From an uncultured Kangiella sp. (GTDB lineage: Bacteria > Pseudomonadota > Gammaproteobacteria > Enterobacterales > DSM-103792): a stretch of 32,328 bases of DNA. Numbering within the stretch: the first letter of the stretch is position 1; each line of letters begins with the position of its first letter. The translations under genes and the position numbers were made by a program. The notes under the pieces are model-generated. The model made no database searches, was not told where the DNA came from, and saw only the letters and a list, made by a program, of their open reading frames with translations. Below are positions 13,643 to 29,430 of the stretch, piece by piece. Location: NCBI GenBank assembly GCA_946481205.1, contig CAMLNB010000011.1, positions 1 to 32,328 on the forward strand, in the 5' to 3' direction.

Positions 13643-15064
13643 ATGTCTAAGTTAAAAGCTGCGTCTTTGCGAGATCGGGTTCGTTGGCTGGTGTTACCGC
13701 TGGCCGCGGTGTTGATGATGGGGTGTGGGGTATTTGATGACGATGACGACGATGATCCGGTCGTTCCGCCTGCACCCCAGACCGCCAAGCTGCGGGTGGT
13801 TCATGCGTCACCGGACGCCCCACCCGTGAATGTCGTGGCCGGCGCCAACAACACCGCGCTGGTCAGCAACTTCGATTACCAGGGCATTACCCCGCTTTCG
13901 ACGCTCCCTGTCGGTAGCTTGACGGTAACGGTCAACGGCATTTTGCCGGGCAGCACGCCCGCTGTGCTCGGCCCGGCCAACCTGAGTCTCGAAGCCAACA
14001 AAATCTACACCGCCATTGCAGCGGACAATGTTGCCGAGCTCGCCTTGGAGCTAGTGACGATTGACGATACCCCAGTGGCAAGCGGGCAGACCCGGGTGAC
14101 CGTTTATCACGGCGCCCCGGCAGCCCCCCAAGTCGATGTCTATGTGACGGCTCCTGGCGCTGATCTGGCAACGGCCACTGCCTTGGGTTCGTTTGCCTTC
14201 AAGCAATCGCTGGGACCGGTGGCTGTCGCCAATGGCGATTACCGGATCCGGGTCACGCCAGCCGGCACCAAAGCGACTGTCGTATTTGACAGCGGACCGG
14301 TCACACTCGGTGGTGGCGATCGGTTTCTTGTCGCCACCGAAAATGTGCTGAATACCGAACTCGGTGCCGCCTACTCACCGATCAATCTGGCGGTCAGTGA
14401 TGGCATCAACCCGAGCGTGGTGTTGCGTGATGTCAGCACACCCGCGGCGTTGCGCGTGGTTCATGCCTCCCCGGATGCCCCTGCGGTGGATATCGTGGTC
14501 AACGATGACTTCGCCACGCCACTGATCAACGCACTGTCGTATCCGGATTTCACTGCTTATGTGACGGTTCCTGCCGATAGCTACAACGTCAAGGTGGCCG
14601 CCGACGCTGACAACGATATCGTTGCGATCGACGCCGATCTGGATCTGACCGCCGGCAGTGTCAGCAGCGTTCTGGCCGTTGGTGAGCTCGGTGATGCCAG
14701 CATCGCGCCGCTGGTGCTGAGCGATTCGATTCGTCGCATCGCTACCGAAGCGCGTGTACGTCTGGTGCACGGCAGCCCGAGCGCTGGTGCGGTCGATATT
14801 TATGTTGTCGCGCCCGGCACCGATCTCGCCACGGCAACACCGGCGTTTAGCAATGTGCCTTTCTTGGCGGACACCGGTTACGTGTCGCTGCTGGCCGGGG
14901 ATTACGATATCGTGATTACCGCAACCGGCAGCAAAACCGCCGCAATAGGTCCGCTCGCCGTCAGCGTTGAAGCGGGAGGGATCTACACCGCCATTGCCCG
15001 TGACGAGGTCGGGGGCGGCGGTCCGCTTGGCGTCATCTTGTTGGATGATTTTGCCGTGCTCTGA
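13643..15064 (+). CDS. DUF4397 repeat lipoprotein
   Basis: A 473-residue predicted lipoprotein. The N-terminus has a basic region, a hydrophobic segment and a lipobox LMMGC with Cys28 as the lipidated residue. A run of seven Asp (32-38) follows, then a proline-rich spacer. The body holds four related units that begin near residues 49, 150, 270 and 371, each opening with a variant of RVVHASPDAPxVDI (for example RVTVYHGAPAAPQVDVYV and RVRLVHGSPSAGAVDIYV). This is the DUF4397 pattern, predicted all-beta and of unknown function. AAGGAG (13627-13632) precedes the start. It is divergent from rpoE-chrR and has a look-alike sigma promoter, so a role in the envelope response to oxidative stress is inferred. 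No terminator is evident after it. Confidence 0.87.
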   Translation: MSKLKAASLRDRVRWLVLPLAAVLMMGCGVFDDDDDDDPVVPPAPQTAKLRVVHASPDAPPVNVVAGANNTALVSNFDYQGITPLSTLPVGSLTVTVNGILPGSTPAVLGPANLSLEANKIYTAIAADNVAELALELVTIDDTPVASGQTRVTVYHGAPAAPQVDVYVTAPGADLATATALGSFAFKQSLGPVAVANGDYRIRVTPAGTKATVVFDSGPVTLGGGDRFLVATENVLNTELGAAYSPINLAVSDGINPSVVLRDVSTPAALRVVHASPDAPAVDIVVNDDFATPLINALSYPDFTAYVTVPADSYNVKVAADADNDIVAIDADLDLTAGSVSSVLAVGELGDASIAPLVLSDSIRRIATEARVRLVHGSPSAGAVDIYVVAPGTDLATATPAFSNVPFLADTGYVSLLAGDYDIVITATGSKTAAIGPLAVSVEAGGIYTAIARDEVGGGGPLGVILLDDFAVL

Positions 15065-18295: not shown

Positions 18296-18559
18296 GATTC
18301 CTTTCCTTTTGCGAACAAACTGGGCCGGTGACCGCGCCTCCTCATGAGTCGCCGTGACCGGCACCTGCGTTCCGGCTCGGGGCGGTAGGCAGTTCCAGTG
18401 GCGCGCAGCCTACGTGGCCGGCAGCGGCCGCGTTGCTAAGATTTCCGTAAAATCACAGCTTGTTACCGCCTGCAATCAGTGGCCATTGGCGCTACCATAC
18501 GCGCCCTGCGGCGGTCGGCCTTTGGTCGCCCGCATCCGCGCCTACGGAGTCCGGTCCTC

Positions 18560-19588
18560 GTGTCTGCCCCCCTTTCCCGCCGCTTCAGTGTTGCGCCGAT
18601 GATGGATTGGACCGATCGGCATTGCCGCTATTTCCTGCGGCTGATCAGCAAGCACGCGTTGCTGTACACCGAGATGGTCACCTGTGGCGCGATCCTGCAT
18701 GGCAGCCGTGATGCGCAGCTGAAATTCGACAAGTTTGAACATCCGGTTGCGCTGCAACTCGGCGGTTCCGATCCGAAACAGCTGGCGCAATGCGCGCGCA
18801 TTGCCGTCGATTACGGCTACGACGAAATCAACCTGAATGTGGGTTGCCCTTCGGATCGGGTCCAGGAGGGCAAATTCGGCGCGTGCTTGATGGCTGAGCC
18901 ACAGCTGGTGGCCGAGTGTGTGGCGGCGATGAACAGCGCGGTGCGCATTCCGGTGACGGTCAAACATCGCATCGGCATCGACGACAAAGATTCTTGGGAA
19001 GAACTGGTCCGTTTTGTCGAAATTGTTGCCGCTGCCGGTTGCCAGAGCTTTACCGTGCACGCGCGCAAAGCCTGGCTCAATGGCTTGAGCCCAAAAGAAA
19101 ACCGCGAGATCCCGCCGCTGCAATACGACACGGTTTATCGGCTCAAGCAAACCTTTCCGCAACTCGAAATCATCATCAACGGCGGCATCACGCAATGGTC
19201 GGCGATTGATCAGCACTTGCAGCAAGTCGACGGCGTGATGATCGGCCGCGAGGCGTATCACAATCCCTGGTTTCTGGCGCAGGTCGACAGCCATTTGTTC
19301 GGCGATGACATGACGCACACCACGCGCGCCGAGGTGCTGCGCGAGTTTGCCGAATACGCTCGTTACCAGCTCGCCCATGGCAGCGGTTTGCAGCACCTGA
19401 GCCGGCATATCCTCGGGTTGTATCACGGTCAAAAAGGTGGCCGGCTGTTCCGCCGCGTGCTGTCGGAACAGGCGCACAAACGCGGCGCTGGCGTCGAGGT
19501 GTTGTTTGCTGCGCTGGCTGCCGTCGAGGCGGCGCAGGCCGAGCCGATCAGCAATAGCGTCGATACCACCGTAACCAGCATCAGCTGA
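18560..19588 (+). CDS. dusA: tRNA-dihydrouridine synthase A
   Basis: A 342-residue flavoenzyme (FMN, TIM barrel) that reduces uridines 20/20a in the tRNA D-loop. Visible marks are [17 protein letters not shown] at the N-terminus, [12 protein letters not shown] with catalytic Cys96, VKHRIGID, and [17 protein letters not shown], which identifies the DusA subgroup. The start is taken as GTG at 18560, with GGAG ten bases upstream; the longer ATG frame from 18479 adds 27 non-conserved residues. A -10-like TACCAT followed by ACGCGCC (18493-18505) lies upstream. A long inverted repeat follows the gene at 19645. Confidence 0.96.
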
Positions 19589-19644
19589 GCGCAGCAGCGT
19601 TTCGTTTTTCCTCCAACAGCACGGCAGATCCGCAGCCCGGCAGA

Positions 19645-19671
19645 ACCGATTGGCGAATTTCGCCAATCGGT
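19645..19671. repeat. 13-base inverted repeat between dusA and the psp-like operon
   Basis: Arms ACCGATTGGCGAA and TTCGCCAATCGGT meet around a single T, a perfect palindrome. No U-tract follows. Its centre is about 118 bases before the predicted sigma54 start site, in the range of enhancer sites for sigma54 activators such as PspF. It may instead be the dusA terminator hairpin. Confidence 0.6.
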
Positions 19672-19749
19672 GGCGTCGCTGCCAATCCGGCTCTGACGCT
19701 ATCTCGTCAACATTCAGCAGAATCAAACACTTAGTTCAAGCTCCGATGC

Positions 19750-19765
19750 TGGCATGCCGGTTGCG
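19750..19765 (+). promoter_or_regulatory. Sigma54 (-24/-12) promoter of the psp-like operon
   Basis: TGGCATG-CCGG-TTGCG has the invariant GG (19751-19752) and GC (19763-19764) twelve bases apart, as required for RpoN promoters (consensus TGGCAYG-N4-TTGCW). The predicted start is near 19776, about 43 bases before the PspA-like start codon. E. coli psp genes are RpoN- and PspF-dependent, which fits. Confidence 0.78.
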
Positions 19766-19818
19766 ATAGCACCGGTAAGTGGCAGCGTTTTCTGCTGCCG
19801 CAGTCAAGGGAGCAGGCC

Positions 19819-20457
19819 ATGGCGTTGGAATGGCTGAAACAAGAGATGCGCGCGCTGTGGCCGCAGGGCCAGCGCTGGCTGGCGTCGATGCGGCATGAGC
19901 TCAGTCGGGTGCAGGCGCTGCACCGGCGCGAACGCGCCCGTGAACGTCTGCTCGAAGCGGAACTCGACAACGCTCGTGCTGCACTGATGCGCTGGCAAGC
20001 GCGCCGCGATGTCGCCGCGCAATTGCCCAGACCGGAGCTTGCCGAGCGGGCGGCGCTGGAAGTGCAGCGTCACGCCGCCGAAGTCGAAGCGATACAGGTC
20101 GTGTTGGCCAAGCAACAAACGCTGACGACAACGCTGACCGAAAAGCTGAGCGCCATGGAATCGCGGTTTCTGATTGCCAGCGAACGGGCGGCCCTGCCGC
20201 GTCGGCCGGTGTTGGAAGTCAGCCGCACGCTCGAAGAGCTCAGTGTGCGCGAGCGCCGCTTCCAGCACAGCGAACAACAATTGCTGCAGCAGTGGCCACC
20301 GGTGCCGGGCATGGCCCGCGATCCGGCCTATGACGATGCCGTGGTCCATGGCACCGCGGCGCCGCGTAACGAACTGGTCGTCGCAAGCGGCTCGGCGGTC
20401 GATGCAGATTTTGTTACCACTACAACGTCAACAGACAAACCGGAGCGTGCACCATGA
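19819..20457 (+). CDS. pspA: PspA/IM30-like coiled-coil envelope stress protein (divergent)
   Basis: A 212-residue predominantly helical protein. Residues 1-130 are long heptad-rich helices with many Arg, Glu and Ala. The segment RPELAERAALEVQRHAAEVE and following LTEKLSAMESRFLIASERA recall the central helices of PspA, which binds stressed inner membrane and restrains PspF. The C-terminal 50 residues are low-complexity (VTTTTSTDKPERAP). Similarity is by pattern only, and the N-terminus differs from classic PspA. The assignment leans on the sigma54 promoter and the PspC gene downstream. AAGGGAG precedes the start by six bases. Its TGA stop overlaps the ATG of the next small gene (ATGA), so translation is coupled. 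Confidence 0.68.
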   Translation: MALEWLKQEMRALWPQGQRWLASMRHELSRVQALHRRERARERLLEAELDNARAALMRWQARRDVAAQLPRPELAERAALEVQRHAAEVEAIQVVLAKQQTLTTTLTEKLSAMESRFLIASERAALPRRPVLEVSRTLEELSVRERRFQHSEQQLLQQWPPVPGMARDPAYDDAVVHGTAAPRNELVVASGSAVDADFVTTTTSTDKPERAP

Positions 20458-20567
20458 TGGCGAACCAGTTGTGGTTGCTGATGTTCAGCCCGGTGCTGGT
20501 CTACAGCGCCTGCGCGGCGTTGATGACCGGCTGGGATCGCTACTGGCGCAAACGGGGCCTCTACTGA
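20454..20567 (+). CDS. 37-residue single-span membrane peptide in the psp-like operon
   Basis: A 37-codon frame beginning at the ATGA overlap with the PspA-like gene. GGAG (20442-20445) lies eight bases ahead. The peptide has one hydrophobic stretch (about residues 5-24, WLLMFSPVLVYSACAALM) and a basic tail (DRYWRKRGLY), so it should be an inner-membrane peptide with its C-terminus inside by the positive-inside rule. It sits where pspB stands in enterobacterial psp operons, between pspA and pspC, but is half the length of PspB and shows no clear similarity. An ATG at 20457 is an alternative start. It is not a named family that I recognise. Confidence 0.62.
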   Translation: MMANQLWLLMFSPVLVYSACAALMTGWDRYWRKRGLY

Positions 20568-20638
20568 CACGCGAGCCGGCCAATGCCGCTGACGAGTGTC
20601 GATGATGGGTGGTACCGGTGCAGAACGAGGAGTGTGAA

Positions 20639-20920
20639 ATGAGCGAGTGTCCCTATTGCGGTGGCAACATGGCTGGCCGCAAGAATGGCGACGGTACGTT
20701 TCGGCGCGAGGGTCGTGGTCCGTTCCGTGCCAGCGATGGCGGCAAAGTGTTCGGGGTTTGCGCCGGCATTGCCGATCACTTTGGTTGGTCGCGGTTTGCC
20801 GTGCGGTTGATCACCTTGCTGGGATTGGTGTTCTTTTTCCCGGCGGTGCTGATTGGTTACCTGCTGGCGGCGCTGCTGCTCGACCGCGACGACGAGCCGG
20901 CACCGGAGTATCGCACCTAA
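20639..20920 (+). CDS. pspC: PspC domain protein with N-terminal Cys pair
   Basis: A 93-residue protein. Residues about 41-84 form the PspC domain: GKVFGVCAGIADHFGWSRFAVRLI followed by a hydrophobic span (LITLLGLVFFFPAVLIGYLLAALLL), here quoted in parts under the family pattern. PspC is an inner-membrane sensor or effector of the phage shock response. Ahead of it lies a short leader with CPYC (Cys4, Cys7), a half zinc-ribbon or redox-like pair not found in E. coli PspC. The start at 20639 has GAGGAG six bases upstream. It closes the PspA-like / micropeptide / PspC unit and is followed by an inverted repeat at 20961. Confidence 0.85.
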   Translation: MSECPYCGGNMAGRKNGDGTFRREGRGPFRASDGGKVFGVCAGIADHFGWSRFAVRLITLLGLVFFFPAVLIGYLLAALLLDRDDEPAPEYRT

Positions 20921-20960
20921 GAAACCCGCAGTATGCAAACCTGACCCGGTCTGATAGCAC

Positions 20961-20989
20961 GCCGGCTGCGACAAAAGGTCGCAGCCGGC
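20961..20989. repeat. 12-base inverted repeat after pspC, overlapping the PCu(A)C promoter region
   Basis: GCCGGCTGCGAC - AAAAG - GTCGCAGCCGGC, a perfect stem with a five-base loop, 40 bases after pspC. There is no U-tract on the plus strand. It ends 17 bases before the TATAAT of the next gene, so it covers the expected -35 region and may be a terminator, an operator or both. Confidence 0.6.
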
Positions 20990-21006
20990 GCCGACCCAAA
21001 CTGCTC

Positions 21007-21017
21007 TATAATCCGCG
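21007..21017 (+). promoter_or_regulatory. Sigma70-type -10 element of the PCu(A)C gene
   Basis: TATAAT (21007-21012) followed by a CCGCG discriminator, about 47 bases before the start codon. No good -35 hexamer is found at 16-18 bases upstream; that position is taken by an inverted repeat arm. The same -10/CGCGCC pattern recurs elsewhere in the window. Confidence 0.55.
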
Positions 21018-21058
21018 CCCAGATTTGCCGCTGACCGATGCGGCGCGGAGTGCCTGCC

Positions 21059-21487
21059 ATGTCCAAACGTATCCTGTCGCTTATCGCCGTGCTGCTGCTC
21101 CGGTCGTCCTCGCTGCTGGCGGCCGAGGCCAGCGGCATCAGCGTGCACAACGGCTATGTCCGCTTGCCGCCGCCGGGCAGCCCGGCCGCGGCGTATTTCA
21201 CCTTAAAGAACAGTGGCGCCGATCGCGCGCTGGTCGATGCCGAATGCCCCTGCGCCGGCATGACCATGATCCACGAGTCGTTTGAAAAAGACGGCATGGC
21301 AAAAATGCGTCATGTCGACAGCGCCGCGTTGCCAAGCGGTGGCGAATTGGTGCTGAAACCGGGTGGCCTGCATGTGATGTTGATGCGCTTGCAGGCGCCA
21401 CTCAAAGCCGGCGATCAGTTGCCCTTGAAACTGATCTTCGCCGACAGCGACAGCTTGACGATCACGCTTCCGGTCGAAGCCCGCTGA
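21059..21487 (+). CDS. Periplasmic copper chaperone of the PCu(A)C family
   Basis: A 142-residue exported protein. Residues 1-22 form a signal peptide (ending LLAAE). The mature part carries the full H-x10-M-x21-H-x-M copper site: His72, Met83, His105 and Met107. This family binds Cu(I) in the periplasm and delivers it for assembly of the CuA or CuB centre of cytochrome oxidases, together with Sco proteins. No sco or oxidase gene is in the window. GGAG (21047-21050) supports the start at 21059; an upstream in-frame ATG at 21038 is not preferred. The PIG-L-like gene follows eleven bases after the stop, so the two are probably cotranscribed. Confidence 0.92.
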   Translation: MSKRILSLIAVLLLRSSSLLAAEASGISVHNGYVRLPPPGSPAAAYFTLKNSGADRALVDAECPCAGMTMIHESFEKDGMAKMRHVDSAALPSGGELVLKPGGLHVMLMRLQAPLKAGDQLPLKLIFADSDSLTITLPVEAR

Positions 21488-26161: not shown

Positions 26162-27244
26162 ATGGCAGGACAGGCAAGAGTGCTGGTGGTGGATGACAAC
26201 AACACCAATCTGGCAGTGGTCGGCGAGTTGCTCGAGCGCCAAGGCTTTGATGTGTTTGCCGCCAACAGCGGCGAGATGGCCTTGCAAATGGCGCCGCTGG
26301 CCAAACCGGAAATTCTGCTGCTGGATGTGATGATGCCCGGTGGCATGGACGGTTATGACACCTGCGCGAAATTGCGCGCCTTGCCCGGGCTTGGCAACGT
26401 GCCGGTGTTGTTTCTGTCGGCCGACAGTACACCGCAAAGCAAGCTGCGCGGTTTTCAAGTTGGCGGCATGGATTACGTCAGCAAACCGTTTCAGGCCGAT
26501 GAGTTGTTGGCGCGGCTGCGCACGCATCTGGAGCTGTACCGGTTGCGCGAACATTTGGCCGATGAAGTCTCGCGGAAAACCCAGGCCGTGCAGGTGCTGG
26601 TCAGCGAACTCAACGACTCTTATGAGCAGGCGTTGGCTTTGCTGGCGCGGGCGGGCGAGTTTCGCGACAAGGACACCGGCAATCACACCCGTCGTATCGG
26701 TGAATACGCCAGCAAGCTGGCGATGCTGGCCGGTTGCGATGCCGACTTTTGTCGTCGGATCCAACATGCGGCGCCGTTGCACGATATCGGCAAGGTCTCG
26801 ATACCGGATCGCATCCTGCTCAAAGCCGGTCCGCTCGATGAAGCTGAATGGAAAATCATGCGCACCCATGCCGAAGCCGGTGCTCAGATTCTGCGCAAAT
26901 ACAGCCAGCCGCTGTTTTTGCTGGCAGCCGATATTGCCAGCGCGCATCATGAACGCTTTGATGGCAGTGGTTACCCGCGCGGCGTACGCGGTGAGGACAT
27001 TCCATTGGCAGCCCGGATCACGACGTTGGTGGACACTTACGATGCACTGCGGTCACGGCGACCGTACAAGGAGCCGTACAGCCACGAGCAGGCGGTGCAT
27101 ATTCTGCAGAATGGCGATGGCCGTACCCAGCCAGAACATTTCGATCCGGATCTGCTGCAACTGGTGATCAAGCATCAGGAATTGCTGCGGCCGGTATTTG
27201 ATGCCGACGTGCAACCGGCGCACACCCGCGGAGCCACAGAATGA
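26162..27244 (+). CDS. Response regulator with HD-GYP cyclic-di-GMP phosphodiesterase domain
   Basis: A 360-residue protein. Residues 5-125 form a receiver domain with the acidic pocket VVDDNN, phospho-acceptor Asp55 in LLLDVMMP and Lys107 in VSKPF. A coiled linker (128-155) leads to an HD-GYP domain: NHTRRIGEY, LHDIGK (His206, Asp207) and HHERFDGSGYPRG (His261, His262, with GYP at 269-271). This family hydrolyses c-di-GMP. All catalytic residues look intact. Its TGA overlaps the ATG of the kinase gene (ATGA at 27241), so the two are coupled and probably cognate. Confidence 0.94.
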   Translation: MAGQARVLVVDDNNTNLAVVGELLERQGFDVFAANSGEMALQMAPLAKPEILLLDVMMPGGMDGYDTCAKLRALPGLGNVPVLFLSADSTPQSKLRGFQVGGMDYVSKPFQADELLARLRTHLELYRLREHLADEVSRKTQAVQVLVSELNDSYEQALALLARAGEFRDKDTGNHTRRIGEYASKLAMLAGCDADFCRRIQHAAPLHDIGKVSIPDRILLKAGPLDEAEWKIMRTHAEAGAQILRKYSQPLFLLAADIASAHHERFDGSGYPRGVRGEDIPLAARITTLVDTYDALRSRRPYKEPYSHEQAVHILQNGDGRTQPEHFDPDLLQLVIKHQELLRPVFDADVQPAHTRGATE

Positions 27245-29430
27245 CCCCAGCCCCGCGCCGGCGTGAGCGCCTGCAATCGCAATTATTTGTCCGCGTTGCA
27301 TTACTGGTTCTGGTGTTGATTCCGCTGTTTGGCGCGCTGCGTTTCCAGAACACCCGCGACGCCTTGCAGCAGGAGTTCGATCAGCGCATGGCCGGCGCCA
27401 CCGAAGTACTGTCGGTGGCGCTGCGCGAACCGCTGTGGGAATTTGACGAAAGCCAGATCGGCGAAGCAGTCAAGGCGTTGTCCTATCTGGATGAATTGCA
27501 GCGCGTGCACATCACCGATCTGAGCGCGGCCCGCTACGAGTGGTGGTTCGAGCGTCAGCAGAACGGCCAGCTGGAGTTGGCCAGCGCACCAGCAGAGGCA
27601 GCCAGCGATGCCATTGCAAAGCGCTTTACCATCGCCGCGCGCGGTGCGGATCTGGCGTCGGTCGAGCTGTTCTTTTCCGATGCCAGCGTGCAGGCGGCGT
27701 CACAGGAAGTGCTGATCAGCATGGTTACGCTGGTCGGCGGTTTCACCGTGGCGATTCTGCTGCTGATGTATGTGCTGGTCGAGCGCTACGTTGGCCGGCC
27801 GCTGTGTCAGCTGCAAGACGCCCTGGCCGATGATGCCGAGCCAAATGTGTTGCCGCGGGTGGTCGCCGAACTGCCGGCCAATGAGTTGCAGGCGCTGGCC
27901 GAGCGTTATATGTCGGTGCTGACTGACCTGCGTAGTCACCAGCAGCATTTGACCGAAATGGTGGCAGTGCGTACCCACGCGCTCAGCGACACCAATCAAC
28001 AACTTGAAGCCGAGATCCAGCGTCGTAATGCGGTCGAAAAAGAGCTGATCGCCGCACGCGAACAAGCCGAGCATGCCAGCGAAGCGAAAACCTATTTCCT
28101 GGCGCACATGAGTCACGAATTGAGGACGCCGCTGAACGGCATCATCGGCTACGCCCAGCTGCTCAGTCATGGCAGCCGCGATGAAGCGGAGAGCCGCGAA
28201 TTCGTTGCCAACATCAACCGCTGTGCCGAACATTTGCTGGAGCTGATCAACCGGATTCTGGATCTGTCGAAAATCGAACAGGGCCGGATGGAACGGCAGG
28301 ATGCGCCGTTTGCTCTGAACCGGTTGATTGAGGACGTCACCACCGTCGTGCGACCGCGCACCGATGCCAAAGGCCTGCAGCTGAAAGTCCAGTACGACAA
28401 CGGTCTGCCACTGGCACTGCTCGGCGACGCCGCCAAGATCAAGCAGGTGTTGATCAACCTGCTCGGCAACGCGGTCAAGTTCACTGAGCGTGGCCAGATC
28501 GAATTGAACGTGCGGCAACTGGTGCCGGGGCAAGTGCAGTTTGCCGTGCGTGATACCGGCATCGGCATTTCCAGCCGCGATTTGCAGCGCATTTTTGAGC
28601 CGTTCCAACAGGCCGGCACCAGCGCCCAGCAATGGCGTCAGGAAGGCACCGGGTTGGGGTTGGCGATCGCCCGGCGCTTGGTAGAAATGCTTGGTGGCAC
28701 GCTGCAAGTCGAGAGCGAGCCGGATCATGGTTCTTGTTTTCGTTTCACGGTGCCGCTACCGGTCAGCGATGTGCCGATCGATGCCGGTGAAGTGCTGACG
28801 CCGGTTGGTCTGATCGGCGATGCGCCGAACATTTTGATCGTCGACGACGTTGCCCATAACCGCGAAACCTTGGCGCTGCAACTGCGCCAGATCGGTTTTC
28901 AGGTGCAGACGGTCGATTCCGGTGAGGCGGCCTTGGCCAGCGTTGCCAGCAAGCGCCCGGATCTGGTTTTCATGGATATCCGGATGCCGGGCATGGATGG
29001 CATCGAGTGCGCGCGTCACTTGCGCGCCGATCATCCTGGCTTGCCGGTGCTGGCATTTACCGCCAGCGTGTTTGACGCCCAGGTCAATGCCGACATCCGC
29101 GCCCATTTCGATGGTCTGGTGCTGAAACCGGTCGATCTGGCCCAGGCCTGTTCCAGCATTGCCAAATGCCTGCCGGTGCAATACCGCTATTCCGAAAAAC
29201 CGATAACCGTAACGGCCGAACCCAGTGCCAGCCTCAGCGTTGCCGAATCGCTGTCGGCCAGTGAGCTGGCTCATTTGCGCGCCTGGTTGTCGGCCGGCGC
29301 GCTGGCCCGTATTCGCGATTTCGGCAATGAACTGCGCAACCGCGAACCGGAACAGGCTGCGCTGGGCGAACAATTGCAGAAGCTGGCCCGGGCTTACGAC
29401 ATTGAGGCACTGCGCCGTTTGCTCGGCTGA
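27241..29430 (+). CDS. Hybrid sensor histidine kinase with C-terminal receiver domain
   Basis: A 729-residue inner-membrane hybrid kinase. Segment one (about 17-35) and segment two (about 157-180) bracket a periplasmic domain of 120 residues. A HAMP-like linker and coiled coil follow. HisKA carries AHMSHELRTPLNGIIGYAQ with His292. The HATPase domain has NLLGNAVKFTERG, DTGIGI and GTGLGLAIARRLV. A receiver domain (530-645) carries Asp579 in VFMDIRMPGMDG. The C-terminal 80 residues are helical but show no phosphotransfer His, so there is no evident HPt. It is coupled to the HD-GYP regulator upstream and divergent from the torT-like gene, suggesting that TorT, kinase and regulator form one pathway. 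Confidence 0.94.
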   Translation: MTPAPRRRERLQSQLFVRVALLVLVLIPLFGALRFQNTRDALQQEFDQRMAGATEVLSVALREPLWEFDESQIGEAVKALSYLDELQRVHITDLSAARYEWWFERQQNGQLELASAPAEAASDAIAKRFTIAARGADLASVELFFSDASVQAASQEVLISMVTLVGGFTVAILLLMYVLVERYVGRPLCQLQDALADDAEPNVLPRVVAELPANELQALAERYMSVLTDLRSHQQHLTEMVAVRTHALSDTNQQLEAEIQRRNAVEKELIAAREQAEHASEAKTYFLAHMSHELRTPLNGIIGYAQLLSHGSRDEAESREFVANINRCAEHLLELINRILDLSKIEQGRMERQDAPFALNRLIEDVTTVVRPRTDAKGLQLKVQYDNGLPLALLGDAAKIKQVLINLLGNAVKFTERGQIELNVRQLVPGQVQFAVRDTGIGISSRDLQRIFEPFQQAGTSAQQWRQEGTGLGLAIARRLVEMLGGTLQVESEPDHGSCFRFTVPLPVSDVPIDAGEVLTPVGLIGDAPNILIVDDVAHNRETLALQLRQIGFQVQTVDSGEAALASVASKRPDLVFMDIRMPGMDGIECARHLRADHPGLPVLAFTASVFDAQVNADIRAHFDGLVLKPVDLAQACSSIAKCLPVQYRYSEKPITVTAEPSASLSVAESLSASELAHLRAWLSAGALARIRDFGNELRNREPEQAALGEQLQKLARAYDIEALRRLLG

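Follow-up and report, generated by a model that had tools for sequence, protein, structure and literature searches.

In E. coli, the phage-shock (Psp) response is controlled by PspF, which activates the waiting sigma-54 polymerase, and by PspA, which restrains PspF. The operon of the E. coli type, pspF-pspABC, shares with the operon analysed here a sigma-54 promoter, a palindromic upstream site, and the order of a PspA-type protein first, a small membrane protein second and PspC third. The present operon differs, however, in having no adjacent pspF, a far diverged PspA and dusA as its neighbour; its middle protein of 37 aa is devoid of the cytoplasmic part of PspB, and its PspC is short and carries a CxxC motif.

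Additional arrangements are close to this operon. The accessible text of PMC9239133 gives pspG as the only other PspF target in E. coli. Like the present operon, pspG is located directly downstream of dusA and has an activator motif and a sigma-54 promoter, but it is one membrane gene, whereas three genes without pspG form the operon described here; the activator motif is the same in both. The dusA-linked pspA2-pspC2 genes of the same order agree in place, in the short PspC and, in most of those scanned, in like control elements; some carry a small ORF separating the two genes, and some are followed by pcuAC. Their PspA is, however, an ordinary one (PF04012 above the cut-off where this model was applied), and their PspC frames showed no CxxC. 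A PspC fused to an N-terminal zinc ribbon has been published before (PMC11237479). It shares with the present protein the cysteines of metal-binding type before the PspC domain, but the present PspC has one CxxC only, so that a metal site would need two subunits. Among the papers listed on Psp evolution, on pspG/yjbN/PspF and on the PspF regulon (mostly open main texts), none was seen to describe a psp operon linked to dusA.

Results

Organization of the dusA-linked operon

The window, as we call the whole stretch of 32,328 nucleotides analysed, contains the following elements.

18479–19588, + strand: dusA, the conserved upstream neighbour, outside the operon
19645–19671, no strand assigned: 27-bp perfect palindrome, predicted PspF-type upstream activating sequence, with the motif core at 19648–19668
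19750–19765, + strand: sigma-54 −24/−12 promoter TGGCATG-CCGG-TTGCG, with a predicted transcription start near 19776
19819–20457, + strand: pspA-like gene (pspA′, 212 aa), assigned by a weak PF04012 match and predicted fold
20454–20567, + strand: gene for a micro-protein of 37 aa with one hydrophobic stretch (by eye) and an ATGA overlap with the pspA-like stop
20639–20920, + strand: pspC-like gene (pspC′, 93 aa), encoding an N-terminal CPYC and a PspC domain without C-terminal extension
20960–20990, + strand: 13-bp G+C-rich perfect hairpin with a 5-nt loop, between the pspC-like gene and pcuAC, without T run
21038–21487, + strand: pcuAC, copper chaperone gene, the downstream neighbour

The palindrome, the promoter and the three ORFs had been pointed out in a sequence-only reading of this DNA, and all were recovered at the same places. 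As judged from sequence comparison, it is likely that the three genes (pspA′, micro-protein and pspC′) form a second, divergent phage-shock operon at dusA, belonging to the PspF/sigma-54 regulon. The Psp-like nature of the operon was supported, but it probably does not represent the main psp operon deprived of pspF; it is rather a second operon, as Permianibacter sp. IMCC34836 has a canonical pspF-pspABC elsewhere. The gene order, which had been considered unusual, is the usual A-B-C order with a small membrane gene between A and C, although the middle gene is indeed non-canonical, being no PspB by Pfam. As had been noticed, pspF is absent from the window: phmmer of the window ORFs gave no PspF match (E 1e-5, among matches listed above 25 bits).

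Comparison with genomes of the same family

All close named relatives of the PspA-like and PspC-like proteins belong to Permianibacter. We compared three genomes of one family: Permianibacter sp. IMCC34836 (G069), a genome taken for P. aggregans (G024), and G049. The IMCC34836 locus (L110) has the order of the window, that is, dusA, palindrome, promoter, PspA-like gene, 37-codon ORF, CPYC PspC, pcuAC and PIG-L. The aligned intergenic sequences show two conspicuous conserved blocks, one at the palindrome and one at the promoter; the palindrome is kept in an imperfect form, GAATGGTGAAATTCGCCATTC, with a motif score of 15.5 bits. On another contig, IMCC34836 carries a canonical operon, in which pspF (518.6 bits, cut-off 443.6) is divergent from ordinary pspA (122.9 bits), pspB and pspC. 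The operon of the window type is therefore the second one in this genome. The activator had been supposed to be encoded elsewhere, and the pspF beside this canonical pspABC makes such a place probable for the window as well.

Genes for sigma-54 (rpoN) were present in all three family genomes, and PspF above the cut-off in two of them (G069 and G049). G049 likewise has pspF and pspABC elsewhere, and its dusA is followed by genes for an ordinary PspA (148.5 bits), for a small protein of 37 aa and for a PspC of 75 aa. In G024, 13 matches to the PspF model were obtained, the best of 284 bits and none above the cut-off; its dusA locus shows no activator site (best 4.8 bits) and no pspA′, and dusA is followed only by a 31-aa ORF and a CxxC PspC. 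The joint absence of PspF, site and pspA′ fits the model of PspF control, as a single event. Apart from these loci, G024 has a PF04012 match of 62.8 bits, above the cut-off, in a 371-aa frame (C1, 1849443–1850093, in L116), though no PspF passes there, and G049 has two more PF04012 proteins above the cut-off (C16, L100; C21, L108) outside its two psp operons.

Middle micro-protein

The second ORF, of 37 codons, overlaps the PspA-like ORF by ATGA, in agreement with the first reading, and it matched no Pfam family. When 35 codons were compared between the window and IMCC34836, the differences numbered 10, 5 and 17 at codon positions 1, 2 and 3; 10 codons were identical, 13 had synonymous and 12 non-synonymous changes. 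This pattern is as would be expected for a translated gene. PspG was rejected as the middle gene: no PF09583 match was detected in the middle protein, and none above the cut-off in the three family genomes.

Small ORFs of 30–43 codons, in which a single hydrophobic stretch was recognised by eye, were found just before pspC2 in 11 aligned loci, the alignment excluding L129 (22 codons) and L130 (near-identical to L128, with a like ORF). A proline, residue 13 in the window micro-protein, is invariant in 11/11 sequences; identity to the window protein ranges from 13 to 23% outside the two Permianibacter genomes. In one comparison alignment, L023 (wrong frame) and L034 were removed and 17 of 19 kept. 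By position and pattern, the small ORFs are likely to represent a single family.

It is conceivable, and we regard this as a real though lesser possibility, that the middle gene is a shortened PspB with the membrane segment only, the operon then being a reduced pspABC. The gene sits between A and C as PspB does, and the G049 version resembles many PspB in having two prolines at a distance of ten residues. Upon hhalign comparison of 8 members with PspB, a P value of 9e-4 was obtained, and the score was reached by none of 200 full column shuffles; shuffles of the hydrophobic core only, however, reached it in 11 of 200. With 11 members the PspB score was lower, being reached by 3/250 full and 32/250 core shuffles, and none of these 11 micro-proteins matched the PspB model of Pfam.

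PspA-like protein

The PspA-like nature of the first gene product was supported in part. The PF04012 search gave 16.8 bits (E 0.0053), below the cut-off of 33.9, but the predicted fold best matches PspA/Vipp1. By hhalign, the PspA-like family gave a weak match to PspA (probability 19.9%, P 0.0011), collinear over 94 columns. The structure model, made from 15 aligned sequences, predicts helices at residues 2–13, 16–67, 72–125 and 134–158, corresponding to a short first helix, a long hairpin and a fourth helix, and thus the ESCRT-III-like helix order with long hairpin; pLDDT is 93–98 in the block of residues 21–120 and below 50 for residues 171–208. In the Foldseek search against PDB, the 17 best rows were all PspA/Vipp1 (E 8.6e-4 to 2.1e-2, one below 0.001), and E. 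coli PspA(1–144) was aligned at 1.6 Å over 107 columns. Helical hairpins are common, and with VIA-align unrelated helical hairpins tied with PspA/Vipp1, giving no discrimination. When the profile of the PspA-like family was searched against PDB sequences, only two weak matches to unrelated proteins were obtained.

When the family HMM was run against the ORFs of the fetched loci, ranks 1–3 were the window protein and the IMCC34836 gene in two copies that overlap, and hits 4–13 were all PspA (20.1 to 13.8 bits, E 0.0005 to 0.04), non-PspA frames starting at rank 14. In the reverse search with the PspA HMM, the IMCC34836 protein scored 18.5 bits, and the window protein 11.8 bits (E 0.12), as high as frames not labelled PspA. 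Taken together, PspA′ is very probably PspA by descent.

That PspA′ is an unrelated coiled-coil protein, which displaced PspA at the dusA locus, appears unlikely to us. Besides the score below the PF04012 cut-off, such an origin would agree with the narrow distribution of the protein: the protein search gave just 14 relatives at E ≤ 0.01, and none was detected in the 10 other genomes reached via the loci. The collinear alignment with PspA, the predicted helix order of PspA type and the exclusive PspA/Vipp1 content of the best fold rows nevertheless speak against it, and ordinary PspA occupies the same place in G049 and others. Scans of viral contigs and a plasmid search gave no relative of the PspA-like protein. 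Two scans of genome contigs gave no Permianibacter locus, one being without match and the other among the best 80 matches listed.

As a PspA by descent, PspA′ seems to have features of its own. Its tail, of low confidence in the model, carries a conserved DADF motif and is probably disordered. No C-terminal helix 5 is seen in the model, in which residues 171–208 are of low pLDDT. The apparent lack of helix 5 and the DADF motif in the tail are features of this PspA′ branch.

PspC-like protein

The third ORF was identified as pspC by PF04024 (E 4e-15, 55.8 bits, cut-off 25), in agreement with the sequence-only reading. With TIGR02978, the equivalog model of E. coli PspC, it stayed below the cut-off (48.1 vs 104 bits). 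The cysteine leader noted earlier is present in the form of a single CxxC; a zinc-ribbon PspC had been published before (PMC11237479). Cys4 and Cys7 are invariant in 14 aligned sequences, and in several relatives His-rich linkers follow CPYC. Of 134 pspC-matching frames (duplicates included), five have a CxxC before the PspC domain; these five come from the window or from one of the two Permianibacter genomes. No relative of PspC′ was found in the viral contigs scanned. The fold prediction of PspC′ (mean pLDDT 63) was set aside. Given the adjoining pcuAC, a link of PspC′ to metal is no more than a fair guess.

Predicted promoter and activator site

The −24/−12 element TGGCATGCCGGTTGCG, with GG at 19751–19752 and GC at 19763–19764, 12 apart, was found at 19750–19765 as had been proposed; the criterion is the general consensus of sigma-54 promoters. 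It is one of two window sites with 1 mismatch to TGGCAYGNNNNTTGCW, sites with 0 mismatches being absent from the window. With up to 2 mismatches, 10 sites were found against 18.5 expected, and since the bare pattern is not enriched in the window, the promoter call rests on conservation and place. The sequence TGGCATG-N2-GGTTGCGATA is the same in the window and IMCC34836 except for the N2, and in each of them 93 bp separate the centre of the activator site from the −24 GG.

The nature of the palindrome was examined with a motif learned independently of the window. We collected 68 loci with pspF divergent from pspA, of which 66 remained after a length filter and 59 after removal of near-duplicates, and carried out a symmetric de novo motif search on these 59 pspF-pspA intergenic regions, the window being excluded. 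The best motif was aaTTaGTnAAaTTnACtAAtt, and lower-scoring alternative motifs from the same runs were set aside. A site of at least 12 bits is present in 40 of the 59 canonical regions and absent from 19. The window palindrome, consisting of arms of 13 nt each (19645–19657 and 19659–19671; 100% complementary) around a 1-nt centre, scored 20.4 bits and ranked first in the 32 kb, the next site having 6.1 bits; the window holds just one strong motif site. After dropping two canonical regions of the Permianibacter family from the motif, the palindrome still scored 20.3 bits. With this leave-out motif, none of 300 windows simulated with matched dinucleotide composition reached its score (largest 18.1 bits). 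As a positive control, the motif ranked the E. coli dusA-pspG intergenic site first within its 5.7-kb locus.

Sites of PspF type are expected about 80–130 bp upstream of the start. The palindrome centre is at −118 from the predicted start 19776, as calculated before, and the palindrome is predicted to bind PspF. Its proposal as a PspF-type activator site gains support from its first rank with the independent motif and its conservation in IMCC34836.

The motif was less regular in other operons. Of 22 operons, several of which are close relatives, 16 have the highest-scoring site of their locus in the 800 bp upstream of pspA; five of the 22 (L114, L124, L134, L138 and L139) have no site above 8 bits within this distance. 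In L126, the best site is located between promoter and gene, i.e. downstream of the promoter, and at the dusA locus of G049, the top site (16.2 bits) lies inside pspC, the upstream site having 6.3 bits. The 15-bp core pattern, with up to 1 mismatch on both strands, gave 168, 83 and 135 matches in three genomes (reversed control 24, 9 and 48), and as a definition of the regulon it was rejected as too loose. Because the core pattern is frequent and the top site of G049 is inside pspC, a motif match alone is unspecific; the activator site of the window, as a prediction, rests on score, place and conservation taken together.

Control of the sigma-54 operon by an enhancer-binding protein other than PspF, with the palindrome as its site, is quite improbable. 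In favour of it, the PspF model matches 10 proteins of IMCC34836, only one of which is above the PspF cut-off, and most others are other activators of this class. However, the motif was derived from pspF-pspA intergenic regions and finds the pspG site of E. coli as well, the gene content is that of Psp, and G024, with no PspF-model match above the cut-off, shows neither the site nor pspA′ at dusA. It is hardly credible that the palindrome, instead of being an activator site, is a dusA terminator or RNA hairpin: it lies 56 bp past the dusA stop and could form a hairpin, but no T run follows it, the imperfect palindrome of IMCC34836 keeps its 15.5-bit motif score, and the only terminator-like site on the + strand in 19500–21200 is at 19587–19602, before the palindrome, such sites being unenriched against shuffles.

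Neighbourhood of dusA in other genomes

Other genomes have the order dusA-pspA2-pspC2, in some cases followed by pcuAC. Of 28 loci, 19 have dusA on the same strand ahead of the psp genes and 15 have pcuAC after them; these were selected loci, 20 of them chosen for short PspC frames and L166–L169 for psp genes at dusA, and the counts are not prevalences. For dusA, an 18-bit edge fragment in L133 was not counted, and gaps of 1.7–1.8 kb are present in L125 and L140. In an even draw of genomes, DusA was found in 65 of 69, and in five of those (G013, G039, G041, G049 and G068) comparison by eye placed a PF04012 match on the same strand not more than 2 kb downstream of it. IMCC34836 is a sixth dusA-psp genome, its PspA-like protein being below the limit of the even-draw search.

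The gene content at this place is variable. E. coli LR-24 has dusA-pspG. Two genomes have pspA2, pspC2 and pspG in succession; Pfam confirmed the PspG, and no dusA was found within the 7 kb examined. This gene succession suggests a common ancestral operon. Four loci with dusA and pspC2 but without pspA (L111, L141, L166 and L167) retain the micro-protein ORF. As the simplest reading, we infer an ancestral dusA-linked operon under PspF control, of which different lineages would have retained different parts.

The pcuAC gene follows pspC2 in the window and in L110, L111, L123, L124, L133, L134, L135, L137–L141, L166 and L169, and its recurrence suggests a link of this Psp arm to copper delivery or respiration. 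Between pspC′ and pcuAC of the window, the hairpin at 20960–20990 is in an intergenic region with a z-score of −6.2, and may be the end or a stabiliser of the operon transcript, or a repeat element. A bare TATAAT at 21007–21012 may belong to an own promoter of pcuAC; the sigma-70 scan listed no promoter there.

Some other genes were observed near these loci. An unannotated protein of about 73–119 aa, exported-looking by eye, is encoded in several psp operons, where its gene follows the sigma-54 promoter and precedes pspA, or else separates dusA from the micro-protein: upstream of pspA2 in L128, L129, L130, L132, L133 and L136, and in L141 (3529–3804), L166 (1947–2593, two copies), L167 (2471–2743) and L113 (5043–5402). 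It occurs in one canonical psp operon too, and four tested members gave no Pfam match above the cut-off. Elsewhere in the window, genes for an HD-domain response regulator and a hybrid histidine kinase, with a 4-base overlap, are located at 26162–29430 near LysR-type and periplasmic-binding-type genes, and a protein with four DUF4397 stretches is encoded at 13643–15064, adjoining an alpha/beta hydrolase gene.

Discussion

A working model of the dusA-linked operon may be drawn as follows. PspF, encoded elsewhere, would bind at 19648–19668. Membrane damage would draw the main PspA off PspF, and the freed PspF would remodel the sigma-54 RNA polymerase waiting at 19750–19765, DNA looping bringing the two into contact, so as to start transcription near 19776. 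The micro-protein would be translated by coupling to pspA′. PspA′ would be an ESCRT-III-like hairpin, seemingly without the final helix used in polymerisation, and the micro-protein and PspC′ would retain it at the inner membrane, where it could stabilise the bilayer or act on the polymers formed by the main PspA so as to modify them. For the CxxC of PspC′, a redox activity or the binding of a metal between two subunits may be envisaged.

The operon is a well supported, strongly altered variant of the known phage-shock operon. From its predicted sites, it is probably driven by PspF and sigma-54. Rather than a new kind of system, it seems to be a second arm of a stress response that is already known.

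Beyond this operon, we tentatively propose that the Psp regulon of this gammaproteobacterial order may include a second, largely unrecognised arm at dusA. Its core would be an unannotated one-helix micro-protein of 30–43 aa with an invariant proline and a minimal PspC, able to persist without PspA and linked to pcuAC. E. coli pspG would then be a remnant of this arm, and the Permianibacter line would represent a specialisation, with CxxC on PspC and a PspA apparently without the polymerising helix, perhaps for envelope damage caused by metal.

The dusA-linked psp operon offers a reason for the position of pspG at dusA in E. coli, and with the motif obtained here, sites of PspF type can be sought in this order. 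The candidate micro-protein and the stripped-down pair of PspA and PspC are test material for the roles of PspB, of the PspC extension and of the last helix of PspA.
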